A stretch of DNA of 64,000 bases from Occultella glacieicola (lineage in GTDB: Bacteria; Actinomycetota; Actinomycetes; Actinomycetales; Beutenbergiaceae), in the NCBI RefSeq assembly GCF_004353825.1, contig NZ_SMNA01000003.1, positions 372,001 to 436,000 on the forward strand, written 5' to 3'. How positions within the stretch are numbered: the stretch's first letter is position 1; every line of letters begins with the position of its first letter. The translations under genes were made by a program, and so were the position numbers. This document shows positions 32,388 to 36,382 of the stretch, piece by piece. A model generated the notes under the pieces. It had not been told where the DNA came from, made no database searches, and saw only the letters and a list, made by a program, of their open reading frames with translations.

Positions 32388-32458
32388 TGAGATCGCACCT
32401 GACGCTGTGAGTTCGCACCGGCACCGGGTGCGAACTCACAGCGTCAGGTGCGAGGTCA
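32388..32458. repeat. Four-site palindromic array, upstream copy
   Basis: Four 12-mers related to TGAGNTCGCACC: TGAGATCGCACC (32388) and TGAGTTCGCACC (32408) forward, then GGTGCGAACTCA (32427) and GGTGCGAGGTCA (32447) inverted, at spacings 20, 19 and 20 bp. The central 61 nt (32393-32453) form a perfect 27-bp stem with a 7-nt loop. It lies between rsgA and the nuclease-like gene. The roughly two-helical-turn spacing suggests protein sites on one DNA face. Confidence 0.85.
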
Positions 32459-32524
32459 GCGGCGTGGACGGCGGCTGTCCACAGGGTCAAGGCACGTCGG
32501 CGCCGGGTCGGCCAGAGTGCGGGG

Positions 32525-33556
32525 ATGTCCGATGACGTCCCGGTCCCGCCCAACCTCCCCCGCACCTTCCTCACCGGTGAGCTGACCGCGAGCGTACGCG
32601 CCCGGCTGCTCGCCGAGGGCCGGCTCACGCAGGTCCGGACCGGTGCGTTCGCGATCGTGGACCCGAACGCACCACGATGGCGACGCAACCGCGCCAACGG
32701 CCTCGGTCGCTGCGTGGCTGCCGCGCGGGTCCTCTCCCGCGACCACGTGTTCGGTCACACGTCCGCCGCACTCCTGCACGGCTGCGCGTACTGGCGGATC
32801 GACGAGAAGGTCCACCTGTTCCAGGATGGCAACCCCAGTCCGCGACACACGAAGGACCTGTTCCGGCACGTCGGCGTGATCCCCGAGCCCGAACGGACGG
32901 TGGTCAACGGCCTGCCCGTCACCACCCTCGAACGGACCATCCTCGACTGTGCCCGGATCCTGCACCCGCGGGACGCGCTCATCGTCGTCGACAGTGCGCT
33001 CCGGATCCTCGTCCGGCCTGACCGGGAGGATCGACCGGGCACCGACCGCCGCACCGCGCAGGTCCGGGACGGGCTGCTCGAGCGCCTCGAGCAGCCCGAC
33101 ATGCGCCGAGGACGGCGGCAGGCCCGCGCGTTGATCGCACTCGCCGATCCCTATGCCGAGTCCGCCGGGGAGTCCGCGGTCCGCTGGCTCGCGCTCGCCC
33201 GCGGCCTGCCGGTCCCGGTCTGCCAGTGCCCGGTCCCGGCCGAGGACAAGACGTACTACACCGACATGGCGTGGTACCTCAACGTGACCCGATCGGACGG
33301 GTCGGAACGGCTCGTCACGATCCACACCGAGTTCGACGGACTCCTCAAGTACCTCGGCGCGGGCCCCGACGCCGCCCGCGTGGTCAGCGAGGAGAAGGTG
33401 CGCGAGGACCGGATCCGCGCGACCGGAGCCGAGGTCGTCCGGGTGATCTGGGACGATCTGTCCCGGCCGGGTCGCGTGTTCGACCGGATCACGCAGTTCC
33501 TGCCCGTCGGTTCCGTGCATGCGCTGCGCGCCCGCGCCGAACTGTTCCGCCCGTGA
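32525..33556 (+). CDS. AbiEi-like winged-helix protein with PD-(D/E)XK nuclease-like C-terminus
   Basis: 343 residues. The N-terminal 50 residues (LTGELTASVRARLLAEGRLTQVRTGAFAIV) resemble the winged helix of AbiEi antitoxins, and VTTLERTILDCAR (132-144) is typical of that family. The C-terminal part (about 210-325) has an ordered E216 (AGESAVRW), D247 (YTDMAW), E269/D271/K275 (TEFDGLLKY) and EEKVREDRIRATGAEVVRV, the pattern of a Vsr/DUF559-like PD-(D/E)XK fold. No AbiEii toxin gene is adjacent, so it is a solo gene. It is flanked on both sides by the same four-site palindromic array, and its stop codon TGA (33554) is inside the downstream array. ATG at 32525 has no clear Shine-Dalgarno. Confidence 0.8.
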   Translation: MSDDVPVPPNLPRTFLTGELTASVRARLLAEGRLTQVRTGAFAIVDPNAPRWRRNRANGLGRCVAAARVLSRDHVFGHTSAALLHGCAYWRIDEKVHLFQDGNPSPRHTKDLFRHVGVIPEPERTVVNGLPVTTLERTILDCARILHPRDALIVVDSALRILVRPDREDRPGTDRRTAQVRDGLLERLEQPDMRRGRRQARALIALADPYAESAGESAVRWLALARGLPVPVCQCPVPAEDKTYYTDMAWYLNVTRSDGSERLVTIHTEFDGLLKYLGAGPDAARVVSEEKVREDRIRATGAEVVRVIWDDLSRPGRVFDRITQFLPVGSVHALRARAELFRP

Positions 33557-33624
33557 CCCCGCACTCCACACACTGAGATCGCACCACCCGACGGTGCGAT
33601 CTCAATGCCGCACGTGCGATCTCA
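33554..33624. repeat. Four-site palindromic array, downstream copy
   Basis: Sites at 33554 (TGACCCCGCACT, degenerate, containing the gene's stop codon), 33574 (TGAGATCGCACC), 33593 (GGTGCGATCTCA, inverted) and 33613 (CGTGCGATCTCA, inverted). Spacings are 20, 19 and 20 bp, exactly as in the upstream copy at 32388, although the 7-8 nt spacers differ in sequence. The two middle sites form a 12-bp perfect hairpin. Confidence 0.8.
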
Positions 33625-33654: not shown

Positions 33655-33696
33655 GGTGGGGTCAGGCGCGGTGGGGGTGGGTTCAGGCGCGGTGGG
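33655..33696. repeat. 21-bp tandem duplication at the sdhB 3' end
   Basis: Two adjacent 21-bp units (33655-33675 and 33676-33696) are identical at 20 of 21 positions. The second contains the sdhB stop and last codons; the first is the extra copy after the stop. Confidence 0.75.
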
Positions 33697-34425
33697 TGAG
33701 GGCGCCGAGGACGTCGCGGTTCAGGCGGGAGATCAGGTCGATCTGGATGCCCTTCGGGCAGGCGGCCGTGCACTCGCCGATCTGGGTGCAGCCGCCGAAA
33801 CCCTCGAGGTCGGCCTGGGCGACCATATCCAGCGCCCGCGAGTGCCGCTCCGGCTGACCCTGCGGGAGCAGCCCGAGGTGGGTCACCTTGGCGGCCACGA
33901 ACAGGGACGCCGATCCGTTCGGGCAGGCCGCCACGCAGGCGCCGCAGCCGATGCAGGTGGCGGCGTCGAACGCGGCGTCCGCGTCGGCCTTCGGCACCGG
34001 CACGGCGTGCGCGTCCGGCGCGGTGCCGGTCGGTGCCGTGATGAAGCCACCGGCCTGGATGATCCGGTCGAAGGCGCCGCGGTCGACGATCAGGTCCTTG
34101 ATCACCGTGAACGGCTCGGCCCGCCACGGCTCGACGTCGATCACGTCGCCGTCGGAGAACGAGCGCATGTGCAGCTGACAGGTGGTGACGCGTTCCTTCG
34201 GGCCGTGGGCCAGGCCGTTGATGACCAGGCCGCACATCCCGCAGATGCCTTCGCGGCAGTCGCTGTCGAAGGCGATCGGGTCCTCGCCCGCGATCGTGAG
34301 GTTCTCGTTGAGGACGTCCAGCATCTCCAGGAACGACATGTCCGGGGACACGTCGGTGACCTGGTAGGTCTGCATCCCCCCGGCGTCGTCGCTGTTGCGC
34401 TGACGCCACACCCGCAACGTGATGT

Positions 34426-34429
<4 letters not shown>
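33683..34429 (-). CDS. sdhB: Succinate dehydrogenase iron-sulfur subunit
   Basis: 248 residues. N-terminal [2Fe-2S] ferredoxin domain with [10 protein letters not shown] (about 58-67) and a later Cys in TTCQLH; C-terminal domain with [14 protein letters not shown] and CTAACPKG for the [4Fe-4S] and [3Fe-4S] clusters. It passes electrons from FAD in SdhA to the quinone site in SdhC. GTG at 34429 overlaps the sdhA stop (GTGA). The last gene of sdhCAB; its 3' end is tandemly duplicated at 33655. Confidence 0.96.

Positions 34430-36382
<1,953 letters not shown>

Follow-up and report, generated by a model that had tools for sequence, protein, structure and literature searches.

In the 64,000-nucleotide stretch of the Occultella glacieicola genome analysed here (contig NZ_SMNA01000003.1, positions 372,001 to 436,000; hereafter the window, to which coordinates without a locus name refer), a gene for a 343-aa protein (32525..33556, forward strand) is bordered by two four-site palindromic arrays (32388..32458 and 33554..33624). 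The protein is predicted to combine an AbiEi-type winged helix with a Vsr/DUF559-like PD-(D/E)XK nuclease domain, for which DNA cleavage is predicted. We propose, giving this a somewhat better than even chance, that gene and arrays form a self-bracketing unit in which a palindrome-binding nuclease maintains and spreads its own recognition palindromes. The data collected below strongly imply that the winged-helix protein binds the arrays. It is likely that it also acts on them via its nuclease domain, because the catalytic residues never vary across 56 proteins. That such action preserves the palindromy of the arrays and converts those in slots already present is a more speculative part of the proposal.

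Each array spans about 71 bp and holds four 12-bp sites in the order forward-forward-inverted-inverted (F-F-R-R). They start at 32388 (+), 32408 (+), 32427 (−) and 32447 (−) upstream and at 33554 (+), 33574 (+), 33593 (−) and 33613 (−) downstream, spaced by 20, 19 and 20 bp on both flanks; starts, order and spacing are exactly those given in a preliminary description of this DNA. It had also placed the stop codon of the gene within the downstream array, and indeed the TGA (33554-33556) doubles as the opening three bases of that array. Relative to TGAGATCGCACC, the upstream sites carry 0, 1, 1 and 2 mismatches and the downstream ones 4, 0, 0 and 1, the site at 33554 being a degenerate member. 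The upstream array is nearly perfectly palindromic through its spacers too, with 41-nt arms that are 90% complementary. A motif-free score, measuring the mutual resemblance of four 12-mers in the F-F-R-R arrangement, reaches 64 out of 72 upstream and 58 out of 72 downstream, compared with a maximum of 48 among 45 block-shuffled sequences of about 4 kb. In the whole genome (5.34 Mb), TGAGNTCGCACC occurs 22 times versus 5 for its reversed control. With one mismatch allowed the genome-wide excess is gone (163 versus 178 for the control), so that lone degenerate sites are uninformative and arrays informative; a two-mismatch site scan of the window gave 9 sites for 7.9 expected, which is not significant. 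It is the arrangement of the sites, rather than any single site, that is the distinctive signal.

For the protein, an AlphaFold2 model built from 56 sequences is confident (pLDDT 93.3, pTM 0.91). The N-terminal part is scored as AbiEi by PADLOC (1e-11), and an AbiEi antitoxin (6y8q, 1.1e-4) is the sole Foldseek match in the PDB at E<=0.001. Weaker structural matches are Rv2827c (0.015), the putative nucleotidyltransferase JHP933 (0.08), MspJI (0.09) and the Vsr-type homing nuclease I-Bth0305I (E 0.76); nuclease matches in the PDB are weak overall (E 0.09-0.8), JHP933 ranking slightly ahead of them. Among viral models, an uncharacterised pithovirus protein matches best (6e-4), ahead of DUF2726, DUF559, and homing and VSR endonucleases at about 0.003-0.03. 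Neither Pfam (E<=10) nor NCBIfam has a match to the window protein itself, and a PDB sequence search with the family profile returned nothing at E<=1. Among the 56 relatives, Pfam finds AbiEi_4 in 14, REase_MTES_1575 in 9, DUF559 in 8, AbiEi_1 in 5 and Ntox3 in 1, the two nuclease-domain families being matched by a minority (8/56 for DUF559, 9/56 for MTES_1575). A passage of PMC3710099 lists MTES_1575 as a restriction endonuclease (REase) of the Vsr fold.

Past residue 214, the model displays an alpha-beta-beta-beta-alpha-beta core with a D in the second strand and E-x-D in the third. This order of strands and helices, together with the D and E-x-D pattern, we take to be a PD-(D/E)XK core of the Vsr/DUF559 kind. 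The active-site pattern of the window protein comprises E216, D247, E269-x-D271 and K275. In an alignment of 56 chosen proteins (fuller-length, non-duplicate members of the homologous loci described below), D247, E269, D271, G272 and R293 are identical in all 56, and E216 and K275 are kept in 55. The winged helix and PD-(D/E)XK-like pattern named in the preliminary description are therefore recovered by PADLOC, by Foldseek, by the families of the relatives and by the invariance of D247, E269 and D271; the modelling it recommended for the C-terminal domain yields strand order and residues that fit such a core, and the loss of the catalytic pattern, which it held would speak against its reading, occurs in none of the 56 proteins.

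Homologues were compared at 80 loci, the best 80 of 130 from named genomes of Occultella, Georgenia, Promicromonospora, Isoptericola, Cellulomonas, Arthrobacter, Actinomyces, Nocardioides, Propionibacteriaceae and others, with equal-sized control windows taken within the same loci. An array score of at least 52 is found upstream in 39 loci, downstream in 47, on both flanks in 33 and on at least one in 53, compared with 2 of 384 control windows. Arrays and homologues co-occur at most of these loci, which is the comparison recommended in the preliminary description, and the conservation of geometry is seen across homologues. A scan for palindromes alone (arms of 31 bp, 22 or more positions paired) gives 51 loci upstream, 58 downstream and 68 on at least one side, versus 9 of 231 controls. 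One control window scored 65-68, equal to true flank arrays, and possibly contains a dispersed array near a homologue.

The sites vary together with the protein. Within the 37 of 80 loci where both arrays score at least 50 (the other 43 being left out), the consensus sites of the two flanks of one locus match at 9.2 out of 10, versus 6.2 for flanks from different loci. Site similarity also correlates with protein identity (Spearman 0.31, with 0 of 500 permutations as high), and among pairs below 45% identity the coefficient is 0.19; these values come from 36 of the 56 aligned proteins, those with an array of at least 54 plus six genus sites entered by hand. We interpret the gene and its two arrays as one co-varying cassette, each protein lineage having its own 12-bp site.

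The same picture can be followed at close range within the genus. Four Occultella genomes (G000-G003) carry nine homologues of types 1 to 4, with a single copy per type per genome. Recognisable four-site arrays flank eight of the nine on both sides; for L017, an array was found at one flank only. Five (L013, L015, L016, L019 and L020) exceed the shuffle maximum of 48 on both flanks, and eight do so on one flank or both. Weak flanks are the upstream one of L014 (45), both sides of L018 (45 and 44) and one side of L021 (48), the arrays of L014 and L018 having been accepted by position, geometry and site. Type 1 uses the site TGAGATCGCACC with spacing 20-19-20, type 2 about TCGASYYAGTCS with 20-20-20, type 3 TGAGCCAGAGGG and type 4 about TGAGGCAGTGCG, both with 19-18-19. 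The type-1 gene holds the same place, between rsgA and sdhB, in three genomes, types 3 and 4 occupy one common place, and type 2 is syntenic on one side. At the locus shared by type 3 (G001) and type 4 (G003), the outer flanks are 94-96% identical in DNA, and the diverged block between them starts about 85 bp ahead of the left array and ends about 55 bp beyond the right one. The two proteins are 58% identical, the array sites differ at about 3 of 12 positions, and the type-4 arrays are the weaker of the pair (scores 53 and 48). Comparison of the two sequences indicates that array, gene and array diverged here as one block.

Arrays are not confined to the flanks of the gene. The contrary idea, of two arrays at the gene and none elsewhere, is refuted by the dispersed copies, although for exact copies it holds in Isoptericola cucumis. 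When 12 stretches around exact 12-mers elsewhere in the genome were inspected, 10 were found to hold a four-site array with spacing 20-(18 or 19)-20. A covariance model of type-1 arrays (R1, built from 12 G000 arrays) gave 74, 41, 25 and 62 strand-matches at E<=1 in G000, G001, G002 and G003, or roughly 37, 20, 12 and 31 places. The corresponding type-2 model (R2, built from two arrays each of G000, G002 and G003) gave, at E<=0.01, 37, 38 and 29 strand-matches in genomes with a type-2 gene versus 8 in G001, which lacks it (places of at least 45 bits: 12, 14, 8 and 1). Both strands were counted and 150 candidates per genome scored, and the tallies lean toward the source genomes because the models were built from their arrays. 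Type-1 arrays are fewest in G002, which has no type-1 gene: 25 strand-matches as against 74, 41 and 62 where the gene is present. A pattern for tandem exact type-2 sites had no match in G000. Arrays lying away from such genes had been named beforehand as a possible objection. They do occur, but have the look of REP-like dispersed copies whose number follows gene type, and therefore they extend the idea of self-bracketing.

Among 55 distinct arrays, 27 have the geometry 20-18-20, 26 have 20-19-20 and 2 are off by one, R1, through which they were found, itself favouring that geometry. According to a custom gene caller, 30 lie between convergent genes, 22 between tandem and 2 between divergent ones, 1 is at a contig edge and none is inside a called gene, compared with 26 convergent, 48 tandem and 15 divergent among gaps of at least 90 bp at the same loci, array-bearing ones included. 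As many as 52 of the 55 adjoin the 3' end of a gene, at a median distance of 35 bp. On the complete chromosome G003:C1 (L213 begins at dnaA), the origin-proximal half is richer in arrays (27 of 35 distinct places, p 0.002); its share is 17 of 22 for type-1 among the matches listed (22 of about 31) and 12 of 15 for type-2. Beyond the genus, Cellulomonas sp. PhB150 has 4 pattern matches and 5 dispersed arrays and C. rhizosphaerae 1, counted irrespective of possible homologues beside them.

Some 20-18-20 arrays look like hybrids, with outer sites YGACCTAGTACC, near the type-2 site, and type-1-like inner sites YGAGATCG (L164:1913-1982, L196:1938-2007, L199:2000-2069); some places are matched by both R1 and R2. 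Neighbouring arrays 143-243 bp apart were seen at L178:1908-2120, L164:1913-2225 and L234 (1314 and 1480). Those of L178 and of L164 are nearly alike, which suggests local tandem duplication.

Several features of the arrays concern the palindrome as a whole. Departures from the consensus are common to the nested partners F1-R1 in 60 of 172 cases and to F2-R2 in 54 of 185, compared with 13-17% for other pairs, and permutation within geometry classes supports nested covariation for F2-R2 in both classes and for F1-R1 in the 20-18-20 class. Spacer complementarity is weak in the Occultella group (4.33 out of 8 versus 3.67 by chance) and strong in 72 gene-flank arrays of the wider family (57-75% per position); in the latter, the middle three spacer positions are complementary at 2.11 out of 3 versus 0.89, and direct extension of the site accounts for just 35-38% at most positions. 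In the syntenic pair L160/L188, spacers differ between species yet are complementary at 6/8 and 8/8. As a cause of the palindrome, an RNA terminator or attenuator was rejected: on the transcribed strand, G-U pairs show no excess over A-C mismatches in 21 of 22 tandem dispersed arrays (35:40) nor in gene-flank arrays (40:39 upstream, 41:51 downstream), and Rfam gave merely miRNA hairpin matches, far under their gathering scores. There is therefore no sign of selection for an RNA terminator hairpin. Because G-U pairs do not outnumber A-C mismatches, the palindrome is more likely a DNA-level property, reflecting a cruciform, a single-strand hairpin or arm-to-arm copying.

The places occupied by arrays can also be compared between species. 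In the window, rsgA (putative start 31401, end 32366, forward strand; NCBIfam TIGR00157) ends 21 bp before the upstream array, and the convergent sdhB (33683..34519, reverse strand; NCBIfam NF005746) ends 58 bp beyond the downstream one, both being outside the unit. At this locus these two genes are the neighbours and no toxin gene stands beside the gene, as had been noted earlier; an AbiE type IV toxin-antitoxin pair was rejected, there being no AbiEii nucleotidyltransferase partner at the window locus. The rsgA-sdhB slot carries type-1 arrays and the gene in three species. In G002 it is not an empty site, because acnA, gap and a type-2-like array occupy it, and it was rejected as such. The content of the L159 slot varies by species. 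A type-1 array that is close to perfect occupies it in G000 and a type-2-like one, which R2 also detects at 42.8 bits, in G002, while G001 and G003 show half a type-1 array with other repeats behind it; occupied in all three relatives, the slot was likewise rejected as an empty site. Both slots therefore persist in place while the array type differs. The search for empty sites proposed in the preliminary description gave no clean one in these two slots compared across four species, target-site duplications not having been scanned systematically.

Directly after the FF half of the type-1 array, L210 (G001) has a single copy, and L212 (G003) about three copies, of a different tandem repeat unit, CTGTTCCACTGACGCGAGGTGCGGG...TTCAGGTCAGGGG, possibly another array family. 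In L211, from 335 (G002:C25:136134-136215), the type-2-like array appears by eye to have the spacing 20-30-20 (R2 match of 82 bases); its centre, longer by about 10 bp, adds about one helical turn, which leaves the halves in phase.

At a larger scale, a syntenic array in G003 accompanies 12 of the 28 G000 array loci. For the remaining 16, none of the 21 array loci fetched from G003 is a syntenic partner, which is not proof of absence because G003 has about 31 array places. In 11 syntenic array pairs, site positions agree at 412 of 528 and spacer positions at 107 of 176. Since random array pairs already agree at 73% of site and 46% of spacer positions, this agreement shows no extra site constraint. 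Four syntenic pairs (L170/L193, L178/L201, L012/L196 and L008/L200) have few site positions in common (27-33 of 48). Two arrays on different contigs, L163:1850-1919 and L173:1981-2050, have 15 of 16 spacer bases identical and are the best candidate for a copy event. Phage records contain no relative at E<=1e-5 and plasmid records 3 weak ones, and phage or plasmid cargo was rejected.

How the proposed unit could work may be sketched by analogy with AbiEi biochemistry. The winged helix of each protomer would read one 12-bp site within a box of about 20 bp, four protomers would fill one array, and the upstream array would probably double as operator. With less certainty, the Vsr-like domain would nick or cut the array to which the protein is bound, most likely once the array DNA forms a hairpin by extrusion or becomes single-stranded at the replication fork. 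Repair templated by the opposite arm or by another array would then maintain palindromy, and the same repair could bring arrays at slots already present into line with the resident protein's site. Spread would proceed mainly through in-place conversion and not through wholesale copying.

A number of observations weigh against this proposal. Cleavage at dozens of places in the chromosome would kill the cell unless it were conditional, and the nuclease fold depends on family matches in a minority of relatives and on weak structural matches. Homologues without arrays, foreseen as an objection, exist in part: 27 of 80 loci have no array at score 52 on either flank, although several of them carry long palindromes whose outer sites are unlike the inner ones (e.g. 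L085, L071, L078). Type-2 gene-flank arrays score low (45, 45, 44) and the second flank of L017 was not found. G002, without the type-1 gene, still keeps 25 type-1 strand-matches at about 12 places. Dispersal is not universal, because in Isoptericola cucumis the exact inner palindrome is present at the two gene flanks only. With regard to palindromy, F1-R1 covariation does not reach significance for 20-19-20 arrays (p 0.16), F1-F2 covariation is slightly above chance too over all arrays (p 0.006), the preference for nested sites is slight in wider-family gene-flank arrays (10.4 and 10.0 out of 12 versus 9.7-10.0), and a clear compensatory spacer change is seen in 1 of 11 syntenic pairs, L160/L188. 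Finally, 15 near-consensus arrays have a mean spacer identity of 43%; they are therefore not recent copies of each other, and copying is not directly visible. Of the earlier suggestion of a self-contained unit acting on its own palindromes, the unit and its co-varying arrays stand, while mobility and cutting by the unit are not supported so far by the sequence comparisons.

These points leave room for other explanations. If the protein were a DNA-binding regulator and the arrays its operators, serving as insulators or bidirectional terminators at convergent gene ends in a regulatory or architectural network on which the nuclease fold does not act, the context of the arrays (30 convergent, 22 tandem, 2 divergent, 1 at a contig edge, none in genes) would follow, as would their enrichment near the origin in G003 and their narrow range of spacings, which is 20-18-20 or 20-19-20 in 53 of 55 arrays but was already built into the model used to find them; AbiEi proteins are moreover described as autoregulators binding inverted repeats. 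Yet such a network would not account for nuclease residues invariant in 56 of 56 proteins, the 35 to 40 ratio of G-U to A-C in 21 tandem arrays speaks against terminators, and the bracketing of the gene on both sides is left unexplained by an architectural role. We regard it as somewhat unlikely. True transposition, in which array-gene-array would be mobile and the dispersed arrays would be non-autonomous copies similar to REPINs or miniature inverted-repeat transposable elements (MITEs) moved by the nuclease, seems unlikely to us. The bracketed gene, the dispersed family, the local tandem duplicates (two arrays each at L164, L178 and L234), the one different-contig pair with 15 of 16 spacer bases in common and the 16 of 28 G000 loci without partner among the 21 fetched G003 loci (of about 31) agree with it. 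But the best-preserved arrays have different spacers, 12 of 28 G000 loci are matched by a syntenic G003 array, and the genes stay in place, type 1 at rsgA-sdhB in three genomes, types 3 and 4 at one place and type 2 with one-sided synteny, with one copy per type per genome. To this are added the lack of a clean empty site in the two compared slots (target-site duplications not being systematically searched) and the records of phages (none) and plasmids (3 weak) with a relative at E<=1e-5.

Less probable again is a solitary defence nuclease or orphan type IV antitoxin that autoregulates via its flanking boxes, the dispersed arrays being unrelated repeats or remnants. The PADLOC score of 1e-11 for the N-terminal part is compatible with it, the rapid divergence of the cassette resembles that of conflict genes, and Vsr-type REases occur in conflict proteins; on the other hand, there is no adjacent nucleotidyltransferase (NTase) toxin gene, the dispersed arrays match the resident gene in their site and are least numerous where it is missing, and a downstream array would be superfluous for autoregulation. 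A palindrome-binding nuclease that maintains its own arrays thus remains our preferred reading.

Its components are each related to known systems. AbiEi antitoxins (COG5340; S. agalactiae 6y8q, M. tuberculosis Rv2827c 1zel) share the N-terminal fold and the DNA-box logic. As stated in part of PMC3985639, AbiEi binds inverted boxes of about 23 bp in the abiE promoter, the winged helix being proposed to lie on a core of about 11 bp; these dimensions would fit a 12-bp site in a box of about 20 bp. In contrast to AbiEi, the unit described here has no NTase toxin partner, an added nuclease domain, and arrays on both sides and dispersed, with two boxes per half. Vsr-type homing endonucleases, REase_MTES_1575 and DUF559 proteins share the C-terminal fold and the D...ExD pattern, whereas here an AbiEi-type DNA-binding half is fused and the presumed sites are the flanks of the element itself. 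MITEs, REPINs and bacterial interspersed palindromes are likewise short dispersed palindromic DNA with a gene-bearing relative. Here, unlike in MITEs and REPINs, near-consensus arrays agree in sites and geometry and not in spacers.

The closest parallel is offered by REPtrons, in which RAYT enzymes are associated with repetitive extragenic palindromic (REP) sequences. Passages of PMC2817692, PMC3733652 and PMC8266576 describe a place-keeping gene between palindromes, gene-specific palindromes near 3' ends and in convergent intergenic regions, palindrome families that differ between paralogues, and palindromes that also occur without the gene. The REP/RAYT-like logic suggested at the outset is recognised here in a place-keeping gene between palindromes and in gene-specific dispersed copies. 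RAYTs are supposed to maintain and spread REPs, and the unit proposed here would do likewise for its arrays. The two systems differ in that the RAYT enzyme is a HuH tyrosine enzyme, instead of an AbiEi winged helix with a Vsr/DUF559-like PD-(D/E)XK domain; in that a REP is a 20-40-bp stem tagged by GTAG/CGTC, instead of a four-site array of about 71 bp whose site varies by locus; and in that the relatives of the window gene found here are all Actinomycetota. A HUH pattern is absent from the window protein (a loose regular expression matched 3 of 56 relatives), none of the five Pfam families matched across relatives is a transposase family, and a RAYT or other insertion sequence was rejected on these grounds. 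The unit would work like a REPtron but is not a RAYT, because the enzyme is unrelated and the palindrome differently built.

It is conceivable, although on balance we doubt it, that the logic of REP transposases arose twice, the second time out of restriction-type parts: a Vsr-like nuclease with a winged helix would read, cut and rewrite its own four-site palindromes, enzyme specificity and palindromes changing in concert and chromosomal slots being converted in place to the site of the resident enzyme. Among the matches listed in the open-licence PMC literature, no description of the gene-array association was found. REP palindromes and RAYTs are a known bacterial example of a 'domesticated' enzyme linked to its own palindromes in many copies, and a passage of PMC8266576 still calls the way REPs spread unclear. 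If our proposal is true, an independent case in another phylum with an unrelated nuclease would separate essential features from accidents of HuH chemistry. Bracketing, palindromy and 3'-end slots are candidates for the former, and differences from protein to site would be readable across many genera. The family would also provide a naturally occurring series of pairs, each of a winged-helix protein and its 12-bp site, and would give a name to genes currently annotated as orphan AbiEi antitoxins or hypothetical proteins.

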